The notes under the pieces were generated by a model. The model made no database searches, was not told where the DNA came from, and saw only the letters and a program-made list of their open reading frames with translations. Source: Psittacicella melopsittaci (GTDB lineage: Bacteria > Pseudomonadota > Gammaproteobacteria > Enterobacterales > Psittacicellaceae). Taken from it: 64,000 nt of DNA. Positions 9,001 through 42,320 of the stretch are shown here, in pieces. Numbering within the stretch: the stretch's first letter is position 1; the number at the start of each line of letters is the position of its first letter. The position numbers were made by a program, and so were the translations under genes. The stretch lies in assembly GCF_003585925.1 (NCBI RefSeq), contig NZ_NRJH01000012.1, positions 37,969-101,968 on the forward strand, given 5' to 3'.

Positions 9001-10766
9001 CAGTTAACCTCAATGCCTCAAGCATTGACGTAAGCGAAGGTAGTGAGCTTAACGTTTATGGTAATGCAAATACAGATGAGCTTACAGTTAACTCTAACTC
9101 AAGTATCAATGTTACAGGTGCACTTACCTCAAATCGCACAGATTTAGATAACGCAACCGTTAACCTAAACTCAGCGTTCTTAGGTGCAGTAAATATTGAT
9201 AACTCAAATGTTACGGCAGTAAACCTCAGTACCGAAGATGCTAAGATCAATAACTCAGCTCTTTCAGCTTCAAATATTGATATTACAGGTAACACAAGCA
9301 TTAACGGTACTAGTGTAAATGCTGGACAGTTTGATATAAGTGGTACTAAAGTTGAGATTAGTGGCAGTACCGTTTCTACTAACGCAACAAATATTAATGC
9401 TACAGATACAGATATTTCGGGCAGTATTTTTGCAAGAGATAATTTAAACATTAACTCTGCAGATACTAATATCTCTGATAGTGATTTAAGTGCGGTAGAA
9501 AACTTTACTTCAAATGGTCGTAACCTTACTATAGATGCTTCTAGTGCTTCGGCTGGTAATGTAACCATTAACGCTAGCGATTCATTAACTGTTGGTAATG
9601 GAAGTCTTGTTAATGCAGTTAACCTCTCTATTAACACAAGTAACTTCAATGGTGATTCTAGCGCCTTCAACTTTACTAATGGTGATGTAACTTGTAGCGT
9701 ATCTAGTCCAGGCTGTGCAAATCTCTATAAATCCATTACAGGTAACGATCTTGTACCAGATAACGTAGGCAACGTTATTAAAGAAGTTGACTCATCTATG
9801 ATCGAAGATACTAAAAAAGCTACAGACGTTTACTCATCGTCTACAGCTTATGAAATCGGTAATAGTGCAGTTAACGCAAATGGTACAGTTGGTGTAAGCG
9901 GTGACGGTACTGACACTGATGATTTAGAGAACTCAACTAACCGTAGCTTAGCGGATACAGATACAGGTGATAGCATTAGCTCTGATCAACAATCTGTAAC
10001 TACTTCACCTGATGCAAATTCATCTAGCGATGAAGACACTAGCATCGATATTGTTGCTACTAAAGATCCTGTGGCTCCAAGCAAGGATATAGATCGTGCT
10101 AACGATAGCAATCAATTTAAAGATGTTGTAGATGCAGGTAATGGTTACAATGATCTAACTCCAAATGGACAAGAGCTCTTCCCTGAATCTAAAGTTCCTA
10201 GTCAAGAAACTTTAGATGAAGTTAAAGGATCTGGTATTGCGCAACAAGCTTTACCATATGGTGAATCTGATGTAAGCTTCCGTTCTATAAGTAAAGTTAA
10301 CATTAATGCTGTATTTGCGGCTGCTCGTCAAAAAGCAAGTGTTGACTTAAGTGCAAGCTTAGATGACTTTAACCAAGCAAACGAAGATGCTACAGGTGAA
10401 AGTCAAGTTAGCGAAAGCGACTTAGAAGCGACAGCAACAACAGGTCAAGGTATGGATCCTACTCGTCCTTACGGTATGTCAGTAGGTGAGTACACGCATA
10501 TGGTACGTAACCTTACTCCTGAAGCTACTGAAGTTCTCGTTAAAACTTCAAATGACTTTGGTTTAGGTGCACAAGGTATGACTTACAACAATCCTGGTAT
10601 CCAGTTAGTAGATCAAGCTCAAACTTGTTCTCCTCTCTCTTCAGCAAATGCTCTAAGCGTTTGTTATGCTCCAGGTAGTGTGCTTCCAGGAAGCCTCAAC
10701 CTCAATGTAAGCAACCCAGGAAATAATGTAGTTGTTCCTCTTGCTCCGACACAAAACAATAAATAA
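1..10766 (+). CDS. Giant HMW/filamentous-haemagglutinin-like two-partner secretion exoprotein, 5' end outside the window
   Basis: The reading frame is open from base 3, so the gene begins upstream; at least 3587 codons are present. Near residue 125-150 (counted from the GTG at 90) it has GLVETSANH followed by WLLDPLNI, matching the conserved GGFVETSGH...WLLDP segment of Haemophilus HMW1/HMW2-type TpsA adhesins. The rest is Asn/Thr/Ser/Val-rich and built of imperfect beta-helix-like repeats, strongest around 6.2-8.6 kb. N-x-S/T tripeptides are extremely dense. The last 400 residues are less repetitive and acidic, and the C-terminus carries a Cys pair (about residues 3513 and 3525) followed by a 33-residue tail, resembling the C-terminal cysteine pair that tethers HMW1. 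The TPS signal domain and TpsB partner would lie upstream. The role as a surface adhesin is inferred from the family. Long minus-strand frames opposite it are low-complexity shadows. Confidence 0.85.
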   Translation, partial: VINQGTIKANVSANGSVELYALGEGSGTYVPSTNTISVSAKGEEQGVVINNGTLVGQQVKVNGDNIYLLGNSSIQAQANGEQAGKVAIGGLNQVGNVAALAKDDSQLKAQKLVVNKNATTRAQGTSKQGGEILAYANVAYFAGNWETTDKAGLVETSANHAYFSDDFNVSTNGGTWLLDPLNINVVNGTALNYNVSDNTNVIYDYNLQADGSVLIHYINNDYSNLVADTSSTNYSLSLTDSFINKRLEQNHVYLYTPDGNVSFTDAVITGSDLSFDFYVFARQGNISLYNTTINISNKDAAVNLVAGNSIYLNNSNVTAANQTYAAVRRIVVDNTTLTGNLSFATGSNVFENWEDTISGLNPGGTFNYSQTSTTNAGADQDTSSTGTKEAIPDPNEQVDSTASEYRSGFAYSIAESDRTIQFTNSTLNITNANASINTNGTIGFSNVTVLGNANSVVADGTTASQDLVKRLSAYRSNLNITSGRGVLFEGNFAVNSALVNLNATSTDETVVAITFTAGTALNATNNGVINLFATSSNGSTAISYLSKNRYQATYDNGTYIDPDLQDTVNLSGRFFITAKVTNEDYALSSIADLTDATLNLDNANLTLMYYNSDTISRLSSLYFKDINLTNKSTLYTFNLNNNGEFTSLTERGNPVIIYGNVSVTNNSLLRLNSRGGVYFSSMNYDDDGELVKSKFYIEQGSYFNSYSPTIIFEDYEVDIQGASNIGEYQPNQSINLIFKNVDANLSGVNLVNLNNLSATFVDSNVSDFNLSATALKAFQLYSENSKYINSTVNINSTGEANLYFLSTTFNNTNVDVKGASVFANRICASEVAHINLTNNSTLNFTTGNATSDGFVDAGVLTLGNLNITSDNTNNSLNFSAKELNFAGTLGYSANVALQNYTANNITVNNKLNLTARNEASKAIAERVLGTEDNEQKTSGIYFTGYNISVNNNLTANADVLDFHATQSLNIAGKVNVTGQVYLGDYRSKNDFQGTGTGLNQYSTYNVNLTGELNVEGDITARNNITLDNGGSLNVSNNLTSDSNIINQNGSVTANNITANFYVQRNGSTKVNHTLKVSRNFVAAVGTVDINSLTATNITLSSRNALQIKNLDYTTNLNIIGGASLTANNVTAGAQATTNIAGNLTVTESLKVNDITLDGGSLTSQGQTSITGDFNATDASINLGDFTYSKAFNFTNTSLNASNLNLEQFQATAGNSFNVTGTLTAKDVEIDGANVSAGTLVAAEGNVDVKNNSNLTVTQNLITKEFNAENASLDLANVAVNKFSTKDVELNSTGLINAPEVVLGENTTASLTNLNATNINVTGAKTNVKISHNLSSENLTVTQNANLSTDNASVGQSFNVTEGGQVVVTGKTVAHNITVKDYNSNAAFSEITATTIDISENGKAYLGVADINTLNTSGISTEVYATNIAATNVNVDEDSRLQVDNQIRTTNLNVGGRATLVAINATANEVNISGNSWASIDNIQATNISVKDYAGALLFNTSATNIVVEDNSYADFCQANTYNLTVTDSNVSFYTANITKNLTLTNSSLKAEEYVRSLDEINLNGSNLTTKDLAVVNLTASNSANITVNQSLRGTNISLNNSKLAVAEDVVAQNALITNESAIKAGNLTAAHQLNVDNAQVEVNHSINAGETQFSQAKVQATNLTSDKLTVQGSDVDLTNLTVAETTSIDKNANLNATSIRTDALVVDQANVSANNIAVNTSVTLTNQAKVKASDSLTSMAIDLNNASIEAGDLTTSTAKIANDSQVNATNTFIANELTIDNSNLKANNAVVNSTATLSNTANVEANNNFTARAVKVDNASLAANNLSVAFDIEASNHSEITAKDTISANILRGNNVSISANDIDVKYEISLTNNSAVEATGNVSAINLEVFNSSLDAGNLSLSQSANFADNAKVKVSDTFDTYYLVANNSTLEAGDLSVETTALLNNTNVTLDGDLSAQALVANNTNLSADNVSVTGDLVVDNGKVSARDTIEAENFNASNTTVTAANLEVENNASLSNGTKVTVTDTLSAANLEANQVKVETANLSVTNNLSLTSDTTVTASDTLSAGNLTADNVTVNSNKVVVDNDATLTNVSVTAKNDLSVGGNFNSADTDVTANNVNVGKDATLTNGTVTAKNDLTVGGNLKAEKVNLNANNLKVENDTTLTDGTVTVGNDLTVGGNLKADKVSVNANNLEVGADATLTNGSVTTENNLSVGGNLEANTVDLKANNLTVAQDVTLTNLTVTANNDLNVGGNLNADRVAVNANNLTVAEDATLTNGPVALGNDLSVGGNLKTENVVVNANDVTVEGDATLSKGAVYARNDLSVGGSLNAENVNLNANNNVKVNEDATLTNGTVTAGNDLSVGGSLNSENVDLSANNLTVNKDATLTNGTVTAGNDLSVGGSLNAEEVDLSANNLTVNKDATLTNGTVTAGNDLSVGGNLNTDKVDVSANDLTVNGDATLTNGTVTATNDLSVGGNLNTDKVDVSANDLTVNGDATLTNGTVTATNDLSVGGNLKADNVDVTANYVTVGKEATLTNVTVTASGDVNANSLTADNVTVTATNLEVENNASLTNDTSVTVTDTLSAGNLTADNTTLNANDVKVDKDASLTDVTVKAGNDLSVGGNLKADNVDVTANDVTVGKEATLINVTVTAGGDVKAGSLTANNATVTANDVKVDNDATLTDVTVNANGDLSAGSLTANNATVTANDVKVDNDATLTDVTVNANGDLSAGSLTANNATVTANDVTVKNNATLTDTTVNANGDVSAGNLTADNVTVTANDVTVDNNATLTDSTVKADGDVSAGNLTADNVTLSANNVNVVNNTTLTSGTTVTANGDITTDNLTADNSSLSADNVVVGSTATLTNGTSVSASDTINAGDLIADNVALSATNVIIENTAVLTNGTTVTASDTVSATNLEVDNSSVEATNVIAEEDANVTNNSNVSAKENLEAGNLTVDSSSVNANNLSGNNVNLGNESNLNIVDSINLNDTFTSVNSNATTVNLNASSIDVSEGSELNVYGNANTDELTVNSNSSINVTGALTSNRTDLDNATVNLNSAFLGAVNIDNSNVTAVNLSTEDAKINNSALSASNIDITGNTSINGTSVNAGQFDISGTKVEISGSTVSTNATNINATDTDISGSIFARDNLNINSADTNISDSDLSAVENFTSNGRNLTIDASSASAGNVTINASDSLTVGNGSLVNAVNLSINTSNFNGDSSAFNFTNGDVTCSVSSPGCANLYKSITGNDLVPDNVGNVIKEVDSSMIEDTKKATDVYSSSTAYEIGNSAVNANGTVGVSGDGTDTDDLENSTNRSLADTDTGDSISSDQQSVTTSPDANSSSDEDTSIDIVATKDPVAPSKDIDRANDSNQFKDVVDAGNGYNDLTPNGQELFPESKVPSQETLDEVKGSGIAQQALPYGESDVSFRSISKVNINAVFAAARQKASVDLSASLDDFNQANEDATGESQVSESDLEATATTGQGMDPTRPYGMSVGEYTHMVRNLTPEATEVLVKTSNDFGLGAQGMTYNNPGIQLVDQAQTCSPLSSANALSVCYAPGSVLPGSLNLNVSNPGNNVVVPLAPTQNNK
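6240..8600 (+). repeat. Intragenic tandem repeats of about 108-111 bp
   Basis: The exoprotein here is a tandem array of 36-37-residue units of the form ANNLTV..DATLTNGTVTA. then NDLSVGGNL.A..VD. Two units around 7318-7540 are almost identical at 111-bp spacing (the string aacggggacg recurs at 7371 and 7482). Two 108-bp units are essentially identical at 7981, 8089 and 8197 (gtagcttaac recurs). Such near-identity within one gene suggests recent unit duplication and a length-variable region. Confidence 0.9.
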
Positions 10767-10808: not shown

Positions 10809-11400
10809 CTTCTAAAACAGAGGTATAGATTAGACTAGATATTACTTTAGCCTCAAGGGGATTGAGCGTAAGCACAAATGGCATGAAGTAGATAATGCTC
10901 ATTCTAAACTTAAATTAGGCTCTCTAATTAATGCTCAGGATTTCTTATTAATGCTCAGACTTTCTTATTAATGGTCATCTTAAGCTTTAATTCTAACCCA
11001 TTAATTAATTGTCTTACCAAGCTTAAATTCTAGTCATCCCAAGCTTAATTAAATTATAGTTCCATAATTAATTATCTTCCCTAAACTTAAATTGGTCTTT
11101 ATATATAATTAATGCTCATCCAAGCTTAATTAAATTGTAACTACCTAATGCTTAATTATCTCCCCTGAACTTAAATATCCCTAATTAATTCATTTCTCTA
11201 GATATTCTCGGCAATTTCTCTAGATTTTAGCGGCATTTTTTCTAGATTTTATCGGCATTTTTTCGATTAATTTCGGTTTTTCTTCTTGCTCAATTTTAGT
11301 CTGAGAGGAGTTTTCGGCTTTAATAACCTTAATTTTTTTAGGTATTTATAAAAAATAAAGTTGCTATAAATCAAAGGTTTAAAGAAAAAAACTAAAATTT
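10809..11400. other. AT-rich gene-free stretch with short degenerate repeats
   Basis: No credible coding frame. The stretch contains recurring short motifs: aagcttaattaaatt twice (about 11039 and 11125), ttaatgctca several times (10928-11120), cttaaat/cttaatta variants, and three copies of a tctagatttt..cggcattttt-type motif at 11210-11270. It may be an eroded repeat region between convergent genes. No function is visible. Confidence 0.5.
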
Positions 11401-11415
11401 TTTTTTATTCCAAAT

Positions 11416-11434
11416 GCAAATGATTATCATTTAG
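11416..11434 (+). promoter_or_regulatory. Candidate Fur box
   Basis: The 19 bases centred on AAATGATTATCATTT (11418-11432) match the E. coli Fur consensus GATAATGATAATCATTATC at 13 of 19 positions and form a near-perfect palindrome. They end just upstream of a TATAAT at 11437-11442, so an iron-loaded Fur would occlude this promoter. The match was made by eye; no scoring matrix was run. Confidence 0.7.
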
Positions 11435-11448
11435 ACTATAATGAATCT

Positions 11449-11553
11449 ATCTAACCAAGCGAAGGTTAGTCTCCTAAAAAGATAGTTAAAATATTTGAAT
11501 TTGTGTAGAGAAAGCATTTTAGCTAACTCAGATAAAGTGCTTTCTTTTTTTTT
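11449..11553 (+). ncRNA. Candidate Fur-repressed small RNA (RyhB/HrrF-like in arrangement)
   Basis: A TATAAT box (11437-11442) abutting a Fur box is followed by about 105 bases without a coding frame. These contain a 5' hairpin CTAACC/GGTTAG (11451-11469), a pyrimidine stretch with TCTCCT (complementary to a Shine-Dalgarno AGGAGA), an A-rich stretch, and a terminator AGAAAGCA (11509-11516) / TGCTTTCT (11538-11545) with a T run to 11553. The arrangement (Fur operator, short transcript, strong terminator) is that of iron-sparing sRNAs such as E. coli RyhB and H. influenzae HrrF. I did not recognise the RyhB core sequence, so any functional equivalence is inference. Confidence 0.55.
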
Positions 11554-11639
11554 ATTGGACTCTTCGCTTCGATGGTTTTCTCTCTCACTCTATTTTTCCA
11601 TCAGGGTTAGATTAGCGCAAAAGCTCATATAATATAGAT

Positions 11640-11815
11640 AATAAAACAAGCGGCGTAGTTTCTACGAATGCAGACGTAGAAACTACTTTTTCTCTTAGCT
11701 TTTACTGAAGTTTTAAGTAATTAAAACTTCACTAAACGCTAATTAGCCACTAATAAACAAAAACACAAAACCCTAAGTCTTGTTTCAGCTGGGGACAACC
11801 CAGCTGAAATTTTAT
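11640..11815 (+). ncRNA. Structured gene-free segment with three perfect hairpins
   Basis: Downstream of a TATAAT at 11628-11633 come three perfect inverted repeats: GTAGTTTCTACG/CGTAGAAACTAC (11655-11686) followed by TTTTT; GAAGTTTTAA/TTAAAACTTC (11707-11730); and TTTCAGCTGGG/CCCAGCTGAAA (11783-11809) followed by TTTTAT. The first and last look like terminators, so one or two short transcripts could be made. No coding frame is visible. Unrelated stacked terminators are an alternative reading. Confidence 0.35.
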
Positions 11816-11934
11816 ATCTAGCGTTTTTTCTCTTAATCTTTTTAATCTTATATCTCCTATGCAACTAGAGTTCCCCCTCTGGTTGCTTTTATATAACTCT
11901 TTATTCACTCTATATTAACTCTGTATTCACTCTC

Positions 11935-11972
11935 TAATCTAATCTATCTAATCTAATCTATCTAATCTAATC
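11935..11972. repeat. 14-bp tandem repeat (about 2.7 copies)
   Basis: The unit taatctaatctatc is repeated head to tail twice and then partially, just before the asd terminator. Confidence 0.85.
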
Positions 11973-11975
11973 AAA

Positions 11976-12015
11976 AAAAAATAGAGTAGGCACTAACCTA
12001 CTCTATTTTTTTTTA
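11976..12015 (-). terminator. Bidirectional terminator downstream of asd
   Basis: Stem AATAGAGTAGG / CCTACTCTATT with loop CACTAA, flanked by an A run on the left and a T run on the right, so it can work on either strand. It sits directly after the asd stop codon. Confidence 0.85.
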
Positions 12016-12016
12016 A

Positions 12017-13147
12017 TTAGTAATCTAAAGGAGCATTAAGAATTAAACGTAACATTCTACGTAATGGTTCTGCAGCACCCCAAAGAAGTTGATCTCCCAC
12101 GGTAAAAATACTTACGTATTCATCACCAAGAGATAATTTACGCACACGACCTACAGCTACATTTAAAGTACCTGAAACAGCCGTTGGCGTTAATTTGTGG
12201 ATAGTTTCTTCTTTATTGTTTGGTACAACATAAACCCATTTATTGTGCTCAGCAATAAGTTTTTCAATTTGTTCTACCGAAAGATTTTCTTTTAGTTTTA
12301 AGGTAATGCTTTGGCTGTGTGAACGTAAAACCCCTACACGCACACAAGTTGAATCAACTTTAATGCTGTGATCAGCTAAGCCAAGGATTTTATTAGTTTC
12401 AGCGTGACCTTTCCATTCTTCTTTGGTAAAGCCGTGCTCGTGTTGTGCATCTATCCAAGGCAGTAAGCTTGCTGCTAATGGTGCCCCAAAGTAAGGTGCA
12501 GCTAAATCAGTACTTAATTTTTCTTGTACTTTAGCAGCTACATCTAACATGGTTTTACTGCGATCCGCTAAGTCTTCTGCTACATGGTTGTAAACTGCAC
12601 CAAATTGCTCAACGAGTTCACGCATGTTTGCAGCTCCTGCTCCCGAAGCAGCTTGGTAAGAGCTTACAATTGCACTTTCTACTAAACCTTTAGTAAAGAG
12701 ACCACCTAAACCAATTAACATTAAAGAGACTGTACAGTTAGAACCTGCAAAGTCTTTTTGTCCATTAGCTATAGCAGCTTGCAGTTGTTCTTTGTTGATT
12801 GGATCAAGAATAAGACTTACATTATCTTTCATGCGTAATGCCGAAGCCGCATCTATCCAATAACCTTGCCAACCTGCTTCTCTTAATTTAGGGTGCATGG
12901 CATTAGTATAATCACCACCTTGACAGGTTATAACAAAATCATACTTGCTTAACTCTTCAACACTATTAGCATCACCAATTACGCCTAGGTCGTACTTACC
13001 TACTTTAGGAGCTGGAGTACCATGAGTTGAAGTTGAGAAAAATGTTGCGTCGATTAAGGCAAAATCATCTTCCTCGAGCATGCGATTTACTAATACCGAG
13101 CCTACCATACCACGGTAGCCTACAATAGCAACTTTTGGTTGTGTCAT
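12017..13147 (-). CDS. asd: Aspartate-semialdehyde dehydrogenase
   Basis: 376 residues, the usual length for the gammaproteobacterial enzyme. It catalyses the NADPH-dependent reduction of aspartyl phosphate to aspartate semialdehyde in the cytoplasm, feeding lysine/diaminopimelate, threonine and methionine synthesis. The N-terminal Rossmann motif VAIVGYRGMVGSVL is at residues 6-20. The catalytic cysteine is in GSNCTVSLM (Cys138), followed by SYQAASGAGAANMRELVEQ, a family signature. ATG start. The gene runs convergently towards the exoprotein gene with a shared terminator region. A 30-bp gap separates it from the small basic-protein gene upstream, so the two may be cotranscribed. Confidence 0.96.
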   Translation of the reverse strand: MTQPKVAIVGYRGMVGSVLVNRMLEEDDFALIDATFFSTSTHGTPAPKVGKYDLGVIGDANSVEELSKYDFVITCQGGDYTNAMHPKLREAGWQGYWIDAASALRMKDNVSLILDPINKEQLQAAIANGQKDFAGSNCTVSLMLIGLGGLFTKGLVESAIVSSYQAASGAGAANMRELVEQFGAVYNHVAEDLADRSKTMLDVAAKVQEKLSTDLAAPYFGAPLAASLLPWIDAQHEHGFTKEEWKGHAETNKILGLADHSIKVDSTCVRVGVLRSHSQSITLKLKENLSVEQIEKLIAEHNKWVYVVPNNKEETIHKLTPTAVSGTLNVAVGRVRKLSLGDEYVSIFTVGDQLLWGAAEPLRRMLRLILNAPLDY

Positions 13148-31930: not shown

Positions 31931-33085
31931 TTAAACAAACATTCTTTGGAGAAGGGCTTGTTTTAGGGTTTTGTGGTGTTCAATAGTTAGTTCTAATTGA
32001 GAGAATAAATTATCAAGATCTTTAAAGAGGTTGCTTAGCTTTTGTTGCTCAGCAAGATCTTGAGGATATTTTATTACAATCTGCTTAAAAGTTGTCTTAC
32101 TAACTTTTGGAATTCCAGCTCTGGTAGCATGTTTGTATGCTTCATTATTTAAGATAGCAGCCATAGCAAAATTGCCATACCCTTTATCTGAAATAGCCAT
32201 TGAACAAAGTTCACTTGCAAGGAACTTTCCTTCCCTATAAAATACAGCTCCAGCATTAGCACCATGAGTAGCCCAGGTTATGCAGTCGCTATATAAATAA
32301 GTGTCACTATATCCACAAATACCGTTATTTGTTGTTTGAGAAGTAATAACAGGATATTTATAAGTTTCAGTTTGTTTATCCTTAACAAGGTCTGTTACAT
32401 TTTTAATCTCACCACTGATAAAACGATCAAAAATATTTTCTACTTTATTTTCAGACCATGGATAGGTAAACTCAGGAAATCTTAGTTCAGGTTGAGTTCC
32501 GTTTTTAACAACTAGAAGTTTATAGATTAAAGACTGTTTTAGTTCTTTTATTTTAGATAATGCATTTTGTAGACTAGTTATCTTATTGTCAACATCTTTA
32601 AAGAAGTTACCGATTTTTTGCTGTTCTGCAAGATCAGGAGGATAAGTAAACACTATCTGCTCCATCACATTATTCATTAACTTAGGAATAACAGCTTTAG
32701 CCACATACCTAAAAGCAACCCTATTGAGAGCTTCTGCCATAGCTTTGTTACTATATCCACGATGAGAAATAAGAACTCCATTTACGTTAGTACTATAGAA
32801 CTTTCCTGAACGAAATGTTACACGTCCTGCATAACCATCGGTAGTCCAAGTTATAGCGTCCTCAAAAAGGTATTCGTTGTAGTAACCGATAATTCCATTA
32901 TTCACTGTCTGTGATGAATAAACAGGATATATATATATAGGGGTAGGAACAGGACTCATTTTGGATACTGCAAGTACTTGTCCACGAGTTATTTCATCGA
33001 AGATATTCTTAACTTGATCTCTTACCCAAGGAGTACTAAACTCAGGAAATCTGAGTGTTGGTCCCTGTATAATCTGTTTTGTCAT
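31931..33085 (-). CDS. hsdS: Type I restriction-modification specificity subunit HsdS, copy 1 (SSR in the in-frame state)
   Basis: 384 residues. Standard HsdS layout: target-recognition domain 1 (about 14-145), a conserved helical spacer (EQQKIGNFFKDVDNKITSLQNAL...LKQSLIYKLL, about 147-190), TRD2 (about 200-330) and a second spacer ending LKQALLQRMFV. HsdS pairs with HsdM (methylation) and HsdR (cleavage) and sets the bipartite DNA target. The gene begins MTKQIIQG, shared with copies 2-5, and carries a (TA)6 tract encoding IYIY at 32927-32939. This is the only copy of the five in which the tract keeps the frame open. TRD1 resembles TRD2 of copies 3 and 6. Candidate -10 on the minus strand at 33151-33156. 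Confidence 0.9.
   Translation of the reverse strand: MTKQIIQGPTLRFPEFSTPWVRDQVKNIFDEITRGQVLAVSKMSPVPTPIYIYPVYSSQTVNNGIIGYYNEYLFEDAITWTTDGYAGRVTFRSGKFYSTNVNGVLISHRGYSNKAMAEALNRVAFRYVAKAVIPKLMNNVMEQIVFTYPPDLAEQQKIGNFFKDVDNKITSLQNALSKIKELKQSLIYKLLVVKNGTQPELRFPEFTYPWSENKVENIFDRFISGEIKNVTDLVKDKQTETYKYPVITSQTTNNGICGYSDTYLYSDCITWATHGANAGAVFYREGKFLASELCSMAISDKGYGNFAMAAILNNEAYKHATRAGIPKVSKTTFKQIVIKYPQDLAEQQKLSNLFKDLDNLFSQLELTIEHHKTLKQALLQRMFV
32927..32939 (-). repeat. TA-dinucleotide tract, copy 1: 6 repeats (in frame)
   Basis: (AT)6A on the plus strand between GG and GGGG. Read on the minus strand as CCT ATA TAT ATA TAT CCT. Gene length is a multiple of three with six repeats. Confidence 0.9.
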
Positions 33086-33112
33086 GATTTTTTCTTAATT
33101 TTTGGTAATTTT

Positions 33113-33124
33113 GCTCTTTAGAGC
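33113..33124 (-). promoter_or_regulatory. 5'-UTR inverted repeat of hsdS copy 1
   Basis: GCTCTTTAGAGC (GCTCT/AGAGC). It lies between the start codon (33085) and the TATAAT on the minus strand (33151-33156). Copies 2-5 have different inverted repeats at the corresponding place. Confidence 0.45.
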
Positions 33125-33150
33125 GTATTTTATATGTAACAATAGTAAAT

Positions 33151-33156
33151 ATTATA
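33151..33156 (-). promoter_or_regulatory. Candidate -10 element of hsdS copy 1
   Basis: Minus-strand TATAAT inside GGTTATAATATTTACT, a sequence conserved upstream of all five array genes at 55-70 bases before the ATG. The -35 region is weak. Confidence 0.5.
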
Positions 33157-33215
33157 ACCTAAAGAAGGATCATCATTGATATGAAAACGCCTCTTTAATA
33201 CTTTCTGCAATATAA

Positions 33216-33248
33216 ATAAGTCCCCAACACAAAGTGTTAAGGACTTAT
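33216..33248 (-). terminator. Terminator between hsdS copies 2 and 1
   Basis: ATAAGTCC...CAACAC / GTT.AGGACTTAT hairpin following the stop of copy 2. Near-identical hairpins follow copies 3, 4 and 5, so each copy appears to be a separate transcription unit. Confidence 0.65.
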
Positions 33249-33262
33249 ATGTAATTTAAAGC

Positions 33263-34877
33263 TTAAACAAACATTCTTTGTAAAAGAGCTTGCTTAAACC
33301 TTTCAAGAGAAGATATTTTAGAAGATAGCTCTTTAATATGATTTTCCACGTCTGTAATTAAATTAGAAACTTTTATCTGTTCTTCTTTACTAGGGAGAAC
33401 CGTAAGCATATTTAATATATCTTTACTACTAATCTTACGAAGAGTACTACCTTCAGCACCCCAATTTACTATACTTAATAAAATTTGTAAAAATTTACTA
33501 TCAATACCTTTATCATTTGTTAACCAAATAATATTAGAATCCTTATAGTACGCTTCTTCGCCATTATAAACTATACTTTTTCCTATAGTCCCAATTGCAG
33601 ACATCATCACATCGCCTTTTTTAGGATATGGATATTTACTCTTATAAGTTTCAAATAACTCACGAGTAATGTAAGCATCAGCCTGTCCACCAAAAGTTCC
33701 TATTTTATAAAAAGGTATATCACCTTCTGGTGTAGTCTGCTCTATAAGCACCCTCTTACAAGATTTTACCGAGCCTATTTTCTCAAAAGTAATCACATCC
33801 CATGGACTATCAAAAGAAGCAAATCTTAATCTTGGAATTGGATTTCTTGTTGAAGGAATCAACTGACGAAGTAGATATTCTTTCAATATGGAGTAATTCT
33901 CTTTCAAAACTTTAGACATCTGAATTAGTTTATCAAGATCTTTAAAAAAGTTACCTATTTTTTGTTGTTCTATTTCTTCAGGTAAATGAAAGTGCAGATC
34001 AGTGAGCATATCAAGAACTATATATGGTATAACACCACCTCTAGATTCCATTTTAATTTTCTTATCCAGAGGCTTCTTTATTACATTAAATATAAAACTA
34101 CGATCTGCTTTAAAATTCTGCAATACATATGTTCGTTGATAAGCATTAAACTTTCCATCAACTAACTGCATAAAGCCAATGGATCCATTACCTGCTATAG
34201 TTATCGCAGGTCCTTCAAATGCATATGAATTTGTTTTTAAAACTTTGATACCACAGGTATAAAAGTTATACTTACCATTTTCATCAGCTTCATCTAAGTT
34301 AACCTTACCAGTCGTAATGCTTACAAGATCTCCTAGTTTAGTCTTATTCCAGTCTTTACTAAATCCAGCAAACCTTAATTTAGGTTGGTTACTTGTCTTC
34401 TTAGCCGAGCTTTTTTTAATGGAGTCTGTAAAGGTGTTTTGTTCCTTTACTTGTTCAGCAGGATTTGTTGAAGTGTATAATCTTAATTCATCCAACTTCA
34501 GATAAATATTTCCTGCTGCAGCTATATGCTTAAACTTACTTAAAGTTTTAGCTATAGCTTTATCTGCAAACGTATTCTTAAAGCCAAGAACACTATTTAC
34601 ATGGCTGCTATAAAGTTTACCTCCATGGAAAGATAAAGTACTAGTTGTAACATTCCTAGATAAGTATTCTTTAGAGTATCCTGAGACCCCATTATCTATA
34701 TCTTCTAATGATTGGAACGGATATATATATAGGGGCTAAAATAGTGTTGGCTTTAGGCACTGTCAGCACCTGTCCTTGGGTAGATTTTACGAAGATTTTC
34801 TTCATTTCTTCTATTACCCAAGGTCCACTATACCCAGTAAAACTAGGTAAAGTACCCTGTATAATCTGTTTTGTCAT
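33263..34877 (-). CDS. hsdS: HsdS copy 2, phase-OFF by a (TA)5 tract
   Basis: Translation from the ATG at 34877 (MTKQIIQG...) reads into (TA)5 at 34721-34731 and stops at 34692 after 61 residues. With six or three repeats the frame would stay open to 33263: 1615 bases plus 2 gives 539 codons. I read the intervening frame and found no stop. The downstream ORF (33263-34495, from a TTG) is an intact HsdS body: TRD1 (LGDLVSITTGK...), spacer EQQKIGNFFKDLDKLIQ, TRD2 (FEKIGSVKSCKR...), C-terminus FKQALLQRMFV. The predicted ON product (538 residues) carries an extra N-terminal truncated TRD of about 125 residues. Low-level translation from the TTG at 34495 cannot be excluded. Confidence 0.85.
34721..34731 (-). 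repeat. TA-dinucleotide tract, copy 2: 5 repeats (out of frame)
   Basis: (AT)5A between GG and GGGG, at the position homologous to the copy 1 tract. It gives ...APIYISVPIIRRYR-stop. Confidence 0.9.
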
Positions 34878-34900
34878 GATATTTTCTTAATTTTTGAAAT

Positions 34901-34922
34901 AGTTATCTTAATCAGGATAACT
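34901..34922 (-). promoter_or_regulatory. 5'-UTR inverted repeat of hsdS copy 2
   Basis: AGTTATC..TTAATCAG..GATAACT: 7-bp arms, 24 bases upstream of the ATG. The -10 (minus-strand TATAAT) is at 34947-34952. Confidence 0.5.
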
Positions 34923-35011
34923 TTATTGTATTTGGCGATAGTAAATATTATAACCGAAAGAAAGATCATTAATATAGAAAACGCCTCTTTAATACTTTCT
35001 ACAATATAAAT

Positions 35012-35040
35012 AAGTCCTCAACACTAAGTGTCGAGGACTT
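35012..35040 (-). terminator. Terminator between hsdS copies 3 and 2
   Basis: AAGTCCTCAACACT / AGTGTCGAGGACTT hairpin with one mismatch, just after the copy 3 stop. Confidence 0.65.
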
Positions 35041-35051
35041 TAATCACTGGG

Positions 35052-36718
35052 TTAAACAAACATACGTTGTAATAGAGCTTGTTTTAGAGTCTTGTGATTT
35101 TCTATAGCTCTTTCGTAAGTAAAAACTAAATTATCAATCTCTGTTAAAAAACTTGAAATTTGATGTTGTTCTGAAATTTCACTAGGATAAAAGATTAAAA
35201 TTTCAGCCATCGTTGTGTTCATTAGCTTAAGATTATCTGCTCTAGACACATGTTTATAAGTAACTAGATTTAAAATTTCAGCCATTGCTGTATTGGAGTA
35301 ACCTTTGTTAGAAAGCAATACTCCATTAATATTGGTACTGAAGAACTTACCCTTTCTAAAAGCTACCGTACCAGCATAAGCTCCATCTGTAGCCCAAGTG
35401 ATAGAGTTTTCAAATAAATATTGATTATAATATCCAGCAATACCATAATTTGTGATTTTAGAGGAATATACAGGATATTTATACTCTGTCGTTGGTAATT
35501 CCTTAATTTTATTCATTGGAAGAACTTCGCCACGAGTGATCTCATCAAAAATATGATTTACTTTATTTTTTACCCATGGCACATAGAATTCAGGAAATCT
35601 TAATTCAGGTTGTTCTCCGTTTTTCACAACAAGAAGCTTCGAAATTAAGGTTCGTTTTAGTTCTTTTGTTATCGATAATGTATTTTGTAGACTAGTAATT
35701 TTATTGTCAACGTCTTTAAAGAAGTTACCTATTTTCTGTTGTTCTTCTAATGAAGGAAATATAATTTCAAAAGTTAATATAGCTTTTTCAGTTACAAGTT
35801 TTGATCCTGTCCCATTCGCATGCATTTCTTTAGATTTGAGAAACGCATCTCTGGTAATGTTGTAATATAAAAAATTTGGATCACCATATTTAATATTAAA
35901 GGAAGGAACCATTTTTGAACTACATTTTCCATTAAACTCTTTAGGTATTATTGCTATCGCTTTATTTAAAAAGTTTTGCTTACCATAGATTAATTGACCT
36001 GCTGTTCTTTTATAATACTCGGTTGCTCCTAGTTTTAGATTAACATCTTTACAATGAGCCAATCCTTTTAAATGCAATCTTAGAGTAAGCAATTGATCTA
36101 CAGAAGTAACATCAACTTTTTCTTGTATAGGAAGCTCTAAAAACTTAGATAATGTAGAGGTGCTCCATTTGTCTGTAAATTCAGGAAACCTTATTCTAGG
36201 TTGATCTCGATTCTTCTTAGCTACAGATTTTACAGAGGCAACCTTATTGCTTGATTTAGTGGTATTTAAGGTACTTTCCTTAAATACATTATTGTTAATA
36301 GGGATTGTAAAGGTATTCCATACCTTTACTTGTATAGCTGGATTAGTTGGAATACTAGATTTTAATAATTCTTCTAACTTGCTATTATTTCCTGCTATAA
36401 CTTTATCTGCAAACGAGTTCTTAAAGCCAAGAACACTATTTACATGGCTACTATAAAGTTTACTTCTAAGGAAGGAAAAAGTACTAGTTGTAACATTCCT
36501 AGATAAGTATTCTTTAGAGTATCCTGAGCCCCCATTATCTATATCTTCTAATGATTGGAACGGATATATATAGGGGCTAAAATAGTGTTGGCTTTAGGCA
36601 CTGTCAGCACCTGTTCTTGGGTAGGTTTTATGAAGAAATTCTTCATTTTCTCTATTACCCAAGGTCCACTATACCCAGTAAAACTAGGTAAAGTACCCTG
36701 TATAATCTGTTTTGTCAT
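35052..36718 (-). CDS. hsdS: HsdS copy 3, phase-OFF by a (TA)4 tract
   Basis: From the ATG at 36718 the frame runs through (TA)4 at 36564-36572 and stops eight bases after the tract (...APIYIRSNH-stop). Adding two repeats (or removing one) restores an open frame to 35052: 1667 plus 4 bases is 557 codons, and no stop was found by reading the frame. The body has TRD1 (LSKFLELPIQEKVDV...LTLRLHLKGL), nearly identical to TRD1 of copy 4, the spacer EEQQKIGNFFKDVDNKITSL, and TRD2 (IFDEITRGEVLPMNK...), of the family found as TRD1 in copy 1. It ends LKQALLQRMFV. There is a small in-frame deletion in the N-terminal leader domain relative to copies 2, 4 and 5. Confidence 0.83.
36564..36572 (-). repeat. 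TA-dinucleotide tract, copy 3: 4 repeats (out of frame)
   Basis: (AT)4A between GG and GGGG at the conserved position. Confidence 0.9.
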
Positions 36719-36741
36719 GATATTTTCTTAATTTTTGAAAG

Positions 36742-36763
36742 AGTTATCTTAATTGAGATAACT
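36742..36763 (-). promoter_or_regulatory. 5'-UTR inverted repeat of hsdS copy 3
   Basis: AGTTATC..TTAATTGA..GATAACT. The arms are identical to copy 2, the loop differs. The -10 (minus-strand TATAAT) is at 36787-36792. Confidence 0.5.
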
Positions 36764-36855
36764 TTATTGTATTGGCGATAATAAATATTATAACCGAAAC
36801 AAAGATCATTAATACAGAAAACGCCTCTTTAGATCGATATTAGATAAGCATAATA

Positions 36856-36890
36856 AATAAGTCCTCAACACAAAGTGTCGAGGACTTATT
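36856..36890 (-). terminator. Terminator between hsdS copies 4 and 3
   Basis: AATAAGTCCTC.ACAC / GTGT.GAGGACTTATT hairpin, 4 bp from the copy 4 stop. Confidence 0.65.
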
Positions 36891-36894
36891 TAGT

Positions 36895-38641
36895 TTATAC
36901 AAACATACGTTGTAATAAAGCTTGTTTAAAAACTTCGTAATTAGTTTTTTGCTTGATAAGCTTTCTCTCTAAAGCCTCTAACTCTTTAAAGAGACTACTT
37001 ACTTTAAGTTGCTCTTCTAAAGAAGGAATAAGCACTTTAATTGCTTCTAAACCTTTAGGATTAATATGTCTAACAGTTGTACCAGTAATAAAAGGATAGA
37101 ATTTTTCTTTGTTGCAAACTAACTGTTCAGCAATAAAACTTGAAGCAACATTAGCATCTTTTATCGCCCCTATTATTACTCCACCTGAAGCTCTAACATT
37201 AGGTGTGTCTATTGCACTTGCTGTTGCTAAGCCTAAAGGAGTTACATCTGAATCTGGAAATAAAAGAGAGTTCGTTGGGATGTATGCTCCTTCGTCATAC
37301 TCAGTGTAAGTTAAAAGACTTTCTCTAGTGATATAACCTTTTAAAGCAAATAGATCACCATAATGGAGAGCTAAATCACCTTTCCCTTCAAAGTTTAATT
37401 TATCTTTCTTTAGGTCAGATCCTTTACTCCAAGTACAGAACTCCTTTAACTTAGTACTTTTCCAGTCTGAACTAAATCCAGCAAATCTCAGCTCAGGTTT
37501 TTTGTTATCGTTTATAGGGAAAACTTTTTGTCCTAGAGAAGACTTTAATTTCACTAAAACATTAATGGCGTTGTTTAAGGAAGATATCTTTTCTTCAATA
37601 TCTTTAAAGAAGTTACCTATTTTTTGTTGCTCTTCTAGTGAAGGAAATATAATTTCAAAAGTTAAAATAGATTTTTCAGATATCCTTTTTGATCCAGTTC
37701 CTTTAGCATACATCTCTTTGGATTTAATATATGAATCTCTTGTTATGCAGTAATATATAAAGTCTGGATCACCATATTTTATATTGAAAGAAGGAACATC
37801 TTTTGAACTACATTTTCCATCAAACTCTTTAGGGATTATTGCTATCGCTTTATTTAAAAAGTTTTGCTTACCATAGATTAATTGACCTGCTGTTCTTTTA
37901 TAATAATCGGTTGCACCTAGTTGTAGGTTAATATCTTTACACAGAGCCAATCCTTTTAAATGCAATCTTAAAGTAAGCAATTGATCTATAGAAGTAACCT
38001 CAACTTTTTCTTGTATAGGAAGCTCTAAAAACTTAGATAATGTAGAGGTGCTCCATTTTCTAGTAAATTCAGGAAACCTTAATCTAGGTTGATCTCGCTT
38101 CTTCCTAGCTACAGGTTTTACAGAGGCAACCTTATTGCTTGATTTAGGAGTATTTAAGGTACTTTCCTTAAATACATTATTTATCGGGGTTGTAAAGGTA
38201 TTCCATACCTTTACTTGTATAGCAGAATTAGTTGGAATACTAGATTTTAATTCTTCCAACTTGCGATTAGCATTTCCTGCTGAATCTATATGCTTAAACT
38301 TACTTAAAGTCTTAGCTATGGCTTTATCTGCAAACGTGTTCTTAAAGCCAAGAACACTATTTACATGGCTACTATAAAGTCTACCTCCAAGGAAAGATAA
38401 AGTACTAGTTGTAACCTTCCTAAATAAGTATTCTTTAGAGTATCCTGAGACCCCATTATCTATATCTGCTAATAATTGGAAGGGATATATATATAGGGGC
38501 TAAAATAGTGTTGGCTTTAGGCACTGTCAGTACCTGCTCTTGGGTCAATTTTACGAAGATCTTTTTACTTTTTTCTATCACCCAAGGACCACTATACCCA
38601 GTAAAACTAGGTAAATTACCCTGTATAATCTGTTTTGTCAT
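36895..38641 (-). CDS. hsdS: HsdS copy 4, phase-OFF by a (TA)5 tract
   Basis: The ATG at 38641 leads into (TA)5 (38485-38495) and a stop at 38456. With six repeats the frame continues to 36895: 1747 plus 2 bases is 583 codons, and no stop was found. The body ORF (36895-38259, TTG start) has TRD1 (LSKFLELPIQEKVEV...), shared with copy 3, the spacer EEQQKIGNFFKDIEEKISSL, and TRD2 (LKEFCTWSKGSDLKKDKLNFEGKGDLAL...), of the family that is TRD1 in copy 5. It ends FKQALLQRMFV. The predicted ON product is 582 residues. Confidence 0.85.
38485..38495 (-). repeat. TA-dinucleotide tract, copy 4: 5 repeats (out of frame)
   Basis: (AT)5A between GGG and GGGG at the conserved position. Confidence 0.9.
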
Positions 38642-38664
38642 GATATTTTCTTAATTTTTGAAAG

Positions 38665-38686
38665 AGTTATCTTAATTTGGATAACT
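38665..38686 (-). promoter_or_regulatory. 5'-UTR inverted repeat of hsdS copy 4
   Basis: AGTTATC..TTAATTTG..GATAACT. The -10 (minus-strand TATAAT) is at 38711-38716. Confidence 0.5.
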
Positions 38687-38783
38687 TTATTGTATTTGGC
38701 GATAGTAAATATTATAACCGAAAGAAAAATCATTAATACAGAAAACGCCTCTTTAGATCGATATGAGATAAGCATAATAAATA

Positions 38784-38810
38784 AGTCCTCAACACAATGT
38801 GTCGAGGACT
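38784..38810 (-). terminator. Terminator between hsdS copies 5 and 4
   Basis: AGTCCTC.ACAC / GTGT.GAGGACT hairpin following copy 5. Confidence 0.65.
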
Positions 38811-38823
38811 ATTTGCATGCTTT

Positions 38824-40571
38824 TTAAATAAACATTCTTTGTAATAATGCTTGTTTTAGTAATTCAATGTTTTTTATATAACTACTTCTTGTTTCATATA
38901 ACTTATCTAAATCAGCAAAAAGTTTAGCTATCTTTTCTTGCTCTTCTAAACTAGGAATTCTTACTAACATACTTTTTAATGTTGAAGATGACACCTCTAA
39001 AAAAGTAGTTCCTGTTGCATTTTTTAATGCAAAATCTTTAACCCTAGCTGTTAGCAGATAAATAAAGTAAGTTAGAGATTTACCTTCTTTAGGAATAAAG
39101 GATTGAAATCCTTGGTTTGTTGAGGCTTCTGCAGACAAAATAGCAGCTTTACCTATACTCGCTCTAGAAGTAAACAGTACTGAGTTTATAGGTAATATTT
39201 TTGCTGAACTGGATTTTAAACCAGCTTCAGTTATTTTTCTCTCGCTATCGGATATATAAACTTTATTGTTTTCAATCTCTGCAGGAGTAAACCAATTAAC
39301 CGTTCCACCTTCCCAAAACTCTGGATTTGTTGTTAAAGGAGTTCCTCCCCCCATGATTTCGACTATATCACTTAAGAGAACTCTTTTCCATTTTTCTTTA
39401 TAAGAAGAGAACCTTAAGTTAGGAGCTTCTTCTAAAGAATTTGCTGTCATTTGATAGGCTAAGCTATTGCGTATCTCTAAAAAAACCTTATTAACTTTTT
39501 TAGATTCTGATATTATTTCATCTATATCTTTAAAGAAGTTACCGATTTTTTGTTGTTCCTCTAATGAAGTTACATTAACTTTAATACAGCTTAACCCCTT
39601 AGCACTAATATGACCTACACCAGTTCCTGTAATGTAAGGTGTGAAAAGATGCTTTTTCCAATTTAGTTGAAAAGATATAAAAGAGGCGTCAGTCCTTTTA
39701 TTCATACTTCCGATTATTGTACCACTAGAAGCTCTGACGTTAGGAGTATCAATCGCACTTGTGATTGCTAATGCTGAAGGGGTTTTACATGAATCAGCAA
39801 ATAGCAAAGAGTTTAATGGAATATATACCCCCTCATTAGATTCTGTATAAGTAACTATATCTTTTGGAAATATAAAATTACCAAAAGAAAAAAGTTGAGC
39901 ATAATGAAGAGCTAGTTCTCCTTTTCCTTCATAATTTAATTTATCTTTTTGTAAATCAGAACCTTTACTCCATTCACATAACTGCTTTAAAGTTTTAGTG
40001 TGCCAAGGATCCTTAAAACCTGGAAATCTTAATTCAGGCTGAATTACATTTTTACTAACTGTAGTTTTAGAAGGTCTAAATGAATTTAAGGAGTTTTCTT
40101 GAGAAACTACCTTACTATTAACATCTAGATAGAAGTCTCTTACTCTTTGCTCAGCAGGATCCGTTAGAATAATAAATTTTACTTCTTCTAACTTGCTATT
40201 AGCATTTCCTGCTGTAGCTACATGCTTAAACTTGCTTAAAGTTTTAGCTATAGCTTTATCTGCAAACGTGTTCTTAAAGCCAAGAACACTATTTACATGG
40301 CTACTATAAAGTTTACCTCCAAGGAAAGATAAAGTACTAGTTGTAACATTCCTAGATAAGTATTCTTTAGAGTATCCTGAGACCCCATTATCTATATCTT
40401 CTAATGATTGGAACGGATATATATAGGGGCTAAAATAGTGTTGGCTTTAGGCACTGCCAGCACCTGTCCTTGAGTAGATTTTACGAAGAATTTCTTCATT
40501 TTTTCTATTACCCAAGGTCCACTATACCCAGTAAAACTAGGTAAAGTACCCTGTATAATCTGTTTTGTCAT
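38824..40571 (-). CDS. hsdS: HsdS copy 5, phase-OFF by a (TA)4 tract
   Basis: The ATG at 40571 leads into (TA)4 (40417-40425) and an early stop (...IRSNH). With six repeats: 1748 plus 4 bases is 584 codons, and I read the whole intervening frame (39808-40416) as open. The body has TRD1 (LKQLCEWSKGSDLQKDKLNYEGKGELAL...), related to TRD2 of copy 4, the spacer LEEQQKIGNFFKDIDEIISES, and TRD2 (LSDIVEIMGGGTPLTTNPEFWEGG...), a family not seen in the other copies but common in HsdS proteins generally. It ends LKQALLQRMFI. A simple start search sees only the part from the TTG at 39807. Confidence 0.83.
40417..40425 (-). repeat. TA-dinucleotide tract, copy 5: 4 repeats (out of frame)
   Basis: (AT)4A between GG and GGGG at the conserved position. 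Confidence 0.9.
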
Positions 40572-41135: not shown

Positions 41136-42320
41136 TTAAGGTACTATAACTTTTTGTACTAGAGCAGCCTTGAGCTTTTTATAGAGTTCTAGTTGTCTAT
41201 GATAAGAATCTATTAACTGATCTAGCTCAGTAAAGAAAGTACTTAGTTTAGCTTGCTCTTCTCCCTCTACAGGATACTCAAACTCTACTATTGCCATAAC
41301 ATTGTTCATGAGCTTAGGAATGCCTCCTTTAGCTACATATTTATGAGCTACGCGGTTTAAAGCTTCAGCAATAACCTTGTTAGCTAAGCCTCGATGTGAA
41401 ATTAGCACACCATTTACATTTGTACTGTAGAATTTACCAGGACGATAAGTAACGCGTCCTGCATAGCCATCGGTAGTCCAAGTAATAGCATTCTCAAATA
41501 AATACTGCTTGTAATAGCCTATTACCCCATTATTTAAAGTTTGCGAAGAGTAAACAGGATATTGATACTCGGGAGTTGCTACACTACTCATCTTAGATAC
41601 AGCTAGCACTTGTCCGCGGGTAATTTCATCAAAGACATTTTTTACTTGCTCTTTTACCCAAGGTTGACTAAAACCTGTAAATCTTAACTGAGGTTGACCA
41701 TTTGCTTGTACGGCAAGAAGCTTGTAAATAAGCGAACTTTTTAATTCTTGCCCCGTTTGCCAAGCTTGCTCTAATAATGCAATTTTTGTATCTACTTCTC
41801 TAAATAAGTTACCAATTTTTCTTTGTTCAGCAAAGTCAGGATAGCTCACAGGAAAGTTTAATACCGCATCTTTACCTAGATTTAACTGTGAAGTACCTGC
41901 CCCCATGCTTTTGAAATACTTTTGTTTGGCATTAATGTACGTAAAGAGGTAGTAAGGATCTATATTCTCGTTTATCACTCGTAACAGAGCTACCCTTTGA
42001 TTGAGAACATATTTATTGTCCTCAGGGATTATTGCTACTTTACCTAAAAAATTACCATAGGCAAGGTCACTTAAAACCATTACGAGGTCGTTTTTAAGGA
42101 GAGTTTGCTCGGAATTATTAATAAACTTGCCCGAAGACTTTAAGCCTCCGTCTATAGACACCGAGTTTAAGTTAATCAATTCATATTTTCCTGAACTTCT
42201 TTGCTCATGCTCATACCCCTTACCATTAGCAAAATAAGTGATCTTGCCTAGGGTAGTGGTAGAGTAAGCTGTGCCTAAGAAATGCAATTCAGGAAGAAGT
42301 AAATCTTTTGTGGTTTCCAT
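41136..42320 (-). CDS. hsdS: HsdS copy 6, intact, without a dinucleotide tract
   Basis: 394 residues. TRD1 (LGKITYFANGKGYEHEQRSSG...) is unique in the window. The spacer AEQRKIGNLFREVDTKIALLEQA is followed by TRD2 (VFDEITRGQVLAVSKMSSV...YQYPVYSSQ), closely related to TRD1 of copy 1. The C-terminal spacer ends KAALVQKVIVP, diverged from the KQALLQRMF ending of the five array genes. At the homologous position the codons are GAG TAT CAA TAT, so there is no TA tract. The N-terminus (METTKDLLLPELHFLG) is that of an ordinary HsdS. No hsdM or hsdR adjoins it, so it must work with subunits encoded elsewhere or be inactive. It may be the ancestral expressed gene. Confidence 0.9.
   Translation of the reverse strand: METTKDLLLPELHFLGTAYSTTTLGKITYFANGKGYEHEQRSSGKYELINLNSVSIDGGLKSSGKFINNSEQTLLKNDLVMVLSDLAYGNFLGKVAIIPEDNKYVLNQRVALLRVINENIDPYYLFTYINAKQKYFKSMGAGTSQLNLGKDAVLNFPVSYPDFAEQRKIGNLFREVDTKIALLEQAWQTGQELKSSLIYKLLAVQANGQPQLRFTGFSQPWVKEQVKNVFDEITRGQVLAVSKMSSVATPEYQYPVYSSQTLNNGVIGYYKQYLFENAITWTTDGYAGRVTYRPGKFYSTNVNGVLISHRGLANKVIAEALNRVAHKYVAKGGIPKLMNNVMAIVEFEYPVEGEEQAKLSTFFTELDQLIDSYHRQLELYKKLKAALVQKVIVP

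Follow-up and report, generated by a model that had tools for sequence, protein, structure and literature searches.

Switching of hsdS and hsdM genes by simple sequence repeats (SSRs) is already known (PMC7394358, PMC9577141), and 7.9% of the hsdS genes in REBASE carry such a repeat according to the survey of Atack 2020, as cited in PMC7394358. In the NgoAV system of Neisseria gonorrhoeae, a poly-G SSR in hsdS alters the reading frame and hence the S subunit that is made (PMC9577141), and in Ca. Mycoplasma girerdii UC-B3 length variants of repeat tracts were seen within the population (PMC5476646). We characterized a related arrangement in Psittacicella melopsittaci, on a stretch of 64,000 nucleotides (contig NZ_NRJH01000012.1, positions 37,969 to 101,968, hereafter the window), in which five tandem hsdS genes each contain a TA-dinucleotide tract close to their start. 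We hold with good confidence that this tract sets the frame of all downstream codons, and slipped-strand changes in its length are predicted to turn each of the five genes on or off, likely independently of the others.

The five genes lie on the minus strand and start with MTKQIIQG at 33085, 34877, 36718, 38641 and 40571. Gene 1 (31931..33085), which we call type A, encodes two target recognition domains (TRDs) and holds an (AT)6 tract (32927..32938) at codons 50-53, read as IYIY, immediately 5' of the sequence P-V-Y-S-S-Q-T in TRD1; it is in frame and specifies 384 residues. The four others are of type B, with three modules, and are all out of frame: gene 2 (33263..34877, (AT)5 at 34721..34730) and gene 4 (36895..38641, (AT)5 at 38485..38494) give products of 61 residues as assembled, and gene 3 (35052..36718, (AT)4 at 36564..36571) and gene 5 (38824..40571, (AT)4 at 40417..40424) products of 56 residues. 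The array is headed by a sixth hsdS gene of the same strand (41136..42320), intact, ungated and 394 residues long. The spacing between the ATG and the tract is exactly 49 codons in all five genes, and the HsdS body is in frame only behind a tract whose count of AT units is divisible by three. Beyond the tract, the frames of genes 1 to 5 are open for 331, 485, 503, 529 and 530 residues. A first-pass annotation of this DNA had listed the same five starts and tracts (n = 6, 5, 4, 5 and 4), placed the tracts at one and the same codon position and taken only n = 6 to be open, all of which we found again; its frame arithmetic (1615+2, 1667+4, 1747+2 and 1748+4) agrees by hand with the gene coordinates, and the post-tract frames of the OFF genes, which it had read as open into full HsdS bodies, do run for 485-530 codons into two TRDs. 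Its proposal that tandem hsdS genes are independently frame-gated by a TA tract is well supported. Tracts of this kind exceed what chance would give: the window contains four matches to (TA)5 against 0.18 expected (two of the four overlap in the n = 6 tract), and none of 100 dinucleotide shuffles of the window reached four.

The repeat numbers, counted in AT units, are the consensus of a draft assembly (2.29 Mb, 99 contigs, 91% complete), in which we found at least 14 TA tracts in hsdS genes, ten in type B and four in type A genes. One of them, cut by the end of contig C13, has no ATG and is excluded from the following counts; in the remaining 13 copies the ATG again stands exactly 49 codons before the tract. 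The number of units is 4 in two copies, 5 in nine, 6 in one and 7 in one; the repeat number thus varies between close paralogs with conserved flanks. Only the copy with n = 6 is in frame and the 12 others, with n = 4, 5 or 7, are out of frame, a proportion below the one third expected at random (binomial P 0.039, for copies that are not independent). The leader seen on the window's own contig (C4) is also found on C2, C9, C13, C70 and C85, and six contigs (C2, C9, C13, C67, C70 and C85) end inside hsdS copies of the gated kind; the true number of gated genes may thus be higher, and separate arrays could be connected.

Each of the six window proteins presents two Methylase_S (PF01420) stretches, the OFF genes having been scanned in their present sequence starting at the tract; this agrees with HsdS, in which two such domains are joined by conserved helices. 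The AlphaFold2 model of gene 1 has a mean predicted local distance difference test (pLDDT) score of 91 and its best matches in the PDB are the HsdS structures 1ydx and 1yf2, and the P-V-Y-S-S-Q-T sequence following its tract shows no variation when gene 1 is aligned with 49 relatives. At the tract position of the gated copies, TRD2 of the ungated gene 6 carries EYQYP; because this E-Y-Q-Y has the same length as an n = 6 tract, an origin of the tract from ordinary codons of a TRD is probable. In the type B genes the tract is located in an N-terminal degenerate TRD, followed by a variable linker and then by a complete two-TRD HsdS. This N-terminal module is 33% identical to TRD1 of gene 1 (measured for the gene 5 leader), and the invariant WTTDGxAG and PKLM motifs are for the most part missing from it. 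Its post-tract parts, all on the minus strand, cover 34385..34720 in gene 2, 36201..36563 in gene 3, 38089..38484 in gene 4 and 40039..40416 in gene 5. An AlphaFold model of a type B post-tract frame was of low quality, with a mean pLDDT of 45.9 from nine sequences.

Genes that are out of frame in an assembly might be nothing else than pseudogenes frozen by a frameshift, and every type B copy of known repeat number is indeed out of frame. We consider this explanation very improbable, on the following grounds. A set of 14 frames had been chosen as open, so their freedom from stops is no evidence in itself. The post-tract frame of ten type B leaders has accumulated no fewer than 155 substitutions, a lower bound deduced from alignment columns, and holds a single stop against 7.4 expected (nominal P(<=1) 0.005), and all indels in these leaders are of 3 or 39 nucleotides, none of them breaking the frame. 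Apart from this one stop, the frame-breaking differences between copies are confined to the tract, and all seven complete type B post-tract frames are open through both TRDs to the C-terminus. The bodies of related copies have dN/dS values of 0.16-0.58 in the seven pairs with unsaturated dS, and of 0.08 and 0.10 in two pairs for which dS is saturated (above 2); pairs below 60% identity or with fewer than 120 aligned residues were excluded, as were the copies cut by contig ends (C85 copy 1, C70 copy 1 and C2). Judged by these ratios, the bodies are under purifying selection. For the leaders the picture is different and could by itself suggest decay: the uncorrected pN/pS of the post-tract part is close to 1, at 0.84 (0.63-1.17) over 105 codons in seven copies and 1.25 (0.78-2.20) over the first 72 codons in eight copies, both intervals spanning 1. 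The pre-tract part gave 0.39 (0.17-0.91) in nine copies. The single stop, the in-frame indels, the leader pN/pS near 1 and the dN/dS of the bodies together make the OFF genes appear maintained, with a leader that is mostly open and yet free to drift. Pseudogene decay was accordingly rejected by the selection tests with one exception, the stop in C13 copy 1.

The same leaders bear on the idea that the HsdS body is translated from an internal start regardless of the tract, which would then affect transcription or nothing at all. Of the seven complete type B leaders, four do retain one in-frame ATG, GTG or TTG, and a database entry (P0001) begins one of the bodies at a codon that reads ATT in the DNA. 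The three other complete leaders have no start codon before the body, two of them being those of genes 3 and 5 in the window, and in-frame starts are depleted in the seven leaders relative to the bodies (4 of 843 codons versus 69 of 2738, P 6e-5). In type A genes, moreover, an internal start would cut into TRD1. Internal initiation hence seems improbable to us, although somewhat less so than frozen pseudogenes.

The association of TA tracts with restriction-modification (R-M) genes extends to the whole assembly, where (AT)>=5 occurs at 16 places, all of them in R-M genes or fragments: 12 in hsdS, three in type III mod genes and one in a BcgI-like gene. Four of the 12 hsdS places are cut by contig ends (C2, C13 copy 1, C70 copy 1 and C85 copy 1), and the five places with (AT)>=6 are all in R-M genes; other repeat motifs were surveyed in selected stretches. 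The mod tracts, on C71 and C78 (L091:813, L135:3534 and L111:4266), have n = 6, 5 and 7 at the same place near the start, and follow the same rule, the frame being open with n = 6 and shifted with n = 5 or 7, so that the ON length equals that of hsdS. All three mod genes contain N6_N4_Mtase, the two that were scanned from their start also contain TypeIII_RM_meth, and ResIII was found in the gene neighbouring mod. C78 carries a tandem pair of gated mod genes along with res genes and one more mod gene, which is ungated. The tract on C7 (L033:7349-7362) lies inside a gene for a 682-residue methyltransferase-nuclease and is in frame; N6_Mtase scored over its cut-off and VRR_NUC just under it, and we take this gene to be BcgI-like. 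A second, ungated paralog lies upstream of it.

The first-pass annotation had named the lack of any HsdM in the genome, together with a lack of type I-like methylation, among the findings that would refute its reading. An HsdM was found on contig C6, with 372 bits on TIGR00497 (cut-off 243), the one protein over this cut-off among those tested, so that this objection falls. Two full-length HsdR are encoded by the contig that contains the window, at a distance of 39-43 kb from the array; both carry HSDR_N, SWI2_SNF2 and T1R_D3, and they score 271 and 261 bits on TIGR00348, below its cut-off of 284.55. Two further HSDR_N matches are on C38 and C23. None of these genes is adjacent to the array, and we infer their pairing with the array HsdS.

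We propose that each gated gene would have its own promoter and terminator, and that every HsdS made would compete for the one HsdM and the two HsdR. The genes that are ON would then give the cell their methylation and restriction motif, in addition to that of the ungated gene 6, and the degenerate leader would persist as a translational gate, open and poor in starts, and not as a DNA-reading domain. The first-pass annotation had counted up to 32 expression states for five binary switches, a number which is too low given the TA-tract hsdS found genome-wide and the gated type III and BcgI-like genes. Since at least 14 hsdS tracts, three mod tracts and the BcgI-like tract are present, the whole is predicted to form, probably, a large and randomly switching repertoire of methylomes and defences.

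The surroundings of the gated genes are repeated together with the tract. A conserved box, TT(C/A)GGTTATAAT, for which we suggest a promoter role, precedes gene 1 at 33151..33162 and begins at 34958, 36798, 38722 and 40637 before genes 2 to 5, in each case on the minus strand; genome-wide, 11 of the 13 copies that have an ATG are preceded by it. Terminator-like hairpins on the minus strand follow gene 2 (33216..33248), gene 3 (35012..35040), gene 4 (36854..36892) and gene 5 (38784..38810), and terminator-like sites number nine against 5.1 in shuffles. The similarity between most copies extends from about -210, in the hairpin of the upstream gene, through the box and the ATG to about +330-490, and past this point the bodies diverge unless they have a TRD in common. 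Members of one TRD family turn up in several genes and at either TRD position, with cluster sizes that are minima because the segmentation missed some TRDs. The different target domains announced by the first-pass annotation are well supported; they are partly shared between the genes of the array.

This recurrence of TRD families across genes and positions is also what would be expected if the OFF genes were a silent library, whose TRDs are expressed only after recombination into an expressed hsdS, the out-of-frame tracts being incidental. The repeated cassettes and C-terminal ends would offer homology for such an exchange, purifying selection on the bodies could act via the donated copies, and a stop is present in one leader. 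A library of this sort fits less well with the OFF genes of the window, each of which keeps its ATG, its upstream box, a terminator-like hairpin and a 49-codon in-frame leader, nor does it account for the nine of ten leaders that stayed open with only in-frame indels, though they are not working TRD donors, or for the mod genes that show the same tract and the same frame rule. We regard the silent library as unlikely, if clearly the less unlikely of the three alternatives discussed here. Frame gating by the tract, which we prefer, might be extended one step further: a retired TRD, deprived of its DNA-reading motifs and bearing a TA switch and an upstream box of its own, could have become a reusable gate, copied before many different complete HsdS, which makes a random switch of any gene it captures. 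A single genome would in that case store a combinatorial library of methylation and restriction states, with most genes OFF and roughly one hsdS gate ON at any moment. This extension is tentative, and falls somewhat short of an even chance in our estimate; it would liken the mostly-OFF library to antigen families.

Comparison with relatives used three congeners of P. melopsittaci (G001-G003, with G000 for the genome of the window). A locus of G001 is 100% identical over 412 residues to a protein (P0176) named for Psittacicella hinzii, a species name that also occurs in the abstracts of two papers on pigeons and lorikeets. The leader DNA was found in none of the 20 other genomes scanned and gave no match in the viral contigs scanned, and a scan of genome contigs gave one hsdS from a Crocinitomicaceae (L060), 52% identical in its best segment. 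Matches to hsdS domains number 44 in G000 and 24, 11 and 18 in G001, G002 and G003, respectively. In the order as a whole, hsdS is present in 118 of 197 genomes; G000 and G001 have at least 17 each and the next highest number among the matches listed is 12. In G003, three of the four (AT)>=5 tracts are in hsdS genes (C173 and C181; L112:6530, L113:6682 and L113:8341), with 8, 6 and 6 units located before the second TRD; one of these genes is open over its full length, one is out of frame and one has no in-frame first TRD, and by analogy with NgoAV their OFF state could leave a half-S. The tracts of G000 and G003 indicate TA gating of hsdS in two of the four genomes, at two positions. G003 also contains an (AG)10 tract (C213, L116:4126-4145), in frame in a gene for an HsdM fused to one Methylase_S domain.

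Several observations weigh against the frame-gating scheme. All repeat numbers come from one draft consensus of one strain, and tracts of 4-7 units are short, with slippage rates that may be low. None of the type B genes of this assembly is in frame, so that a working three-module HsdS was not seen. In C13 copy 1 (L031:1-52, at a contig end) an in-frame TGA lies 13 codons past the tract, which marks one gate or more as either defunct or wrongly assembled, and the start codons retained in four of the seven complete leaders make leaky initiation possible. In the leader tests, copies that are related and that recombine were counted as if independent, and the P values are for that reason nominal. 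The upstream box is absent or altered in two of the 13 copies, and a sigma-70 scan gave 31 sites versus 43.7 in shuffles, which lends no support to promoters and leaves conservation as what suggests a promoter role of the box. Among the congeners, G001 has no (AT)>=5 at all, the two of G002 are both at contig ends, and one of those in G003 falls outside any long open frame in the stretch examined. Finally, three protein searches found no proteins of another strain, the high-identity matches being read as entries of the same genome that are given without a source; one of these searches covered the best 120 of 1782 matches, from the 7997 candidates with the most words in common, and another the best 120 of 3257.

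Two further observations concern repeat-containing proteins encoded elsewhere. The methyltransferase-nuclease genes of C7 are flanked by proteins made of repeated W-D/N-V-S-x-V-T-x-M-x-x-M-F units (L033:3-3152 and 10867-12486), presumably BspA-like. In the window, positions 90-10766 hold an open frame of 3558 residues with tandem repeats of 108-111 bp, which appears adhesin-like by reading only.

If the predicted switching is true, a clone could comprise thousands of methylation and restriction states and sister cells would differ in DNA methylation, which would matter for epigenetic control of genes and for bet-hedging as a defence against phages. A single methyltransferase would serve at least 14 specificity genes, and the degenerate-TRD leader would be a clear example of a domain that a protein retains because of the frame it provides and not because of what it does. 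In the literature consulted, SSR-switched type I systems have one or a few switched genes, versus at least 14 here. Neither a tandem array of gated hsdS genes nor a degenerate-TRD gate appeared in open-access titles and abstract openings, among the matches listed. Phase-variable hsdS genes are known; what looks new is how many genes are involved, that TA tracts are restricted to R-M genes, and that a degenerate TRD serves as the gate.

The window genes share with the SSR-bearing hsdS of REBASE the presence of a repeat that predicts a switch (PMC7394358), and with NgoAV an SSR within the hsdS coding sequence which sets the frame (PMC9577141). NgoAV consists of one locus whose poly-G lies late in hsdS1 (208 of ~410 residues) and switches between a working half-S and a fused S, whereas the window genes have their tract at codon 50 and an OFF product of 56-61 residues, in a genome with at least 14 tract-bearing hsdS. 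A half-S switch of the NgoAV type was rejected for the window since this OFF product is too short and the tract is not between TRD1 and TRD2. Ca. Mycoplasma girerdii UC-B3 is similar in that dinucleotide tracts of at least five units occur in HsdS and type III methyltransferase genes (PMC5476646); there, each of two HsdS loci has two tracts, the repeats are of eight motifs and eight genes for BspA-like surface proteins are affected too, while here every (AT)>=5 is in an R-M gene and most are in one gate cassette. The inverting or shuffling hsdS loci of S. suis (PMC6265453) and S. pneumoniae (PMC4948785) likewise have several hsdS per HsdM and a switchable specificity, and switch by recombination into one expressed gene. 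The window differs from them by the use of one strand and by a start and upstream box for each gated gene; an inverting locus was rejected because all six hsdS genes are on the minus strand, a recombinase gene not having been searched for. The domain movement (DOMO) of H. pylori and M. agalactiae provides the last parallel, with TRDs that move between positions and genes and with three-TRD S genes (PMC3077401). The three-TRD form described there is TRD1-TRD2-TRD2, whereas the additional TRD described here is degenerate, N-terminal and carries the gate.

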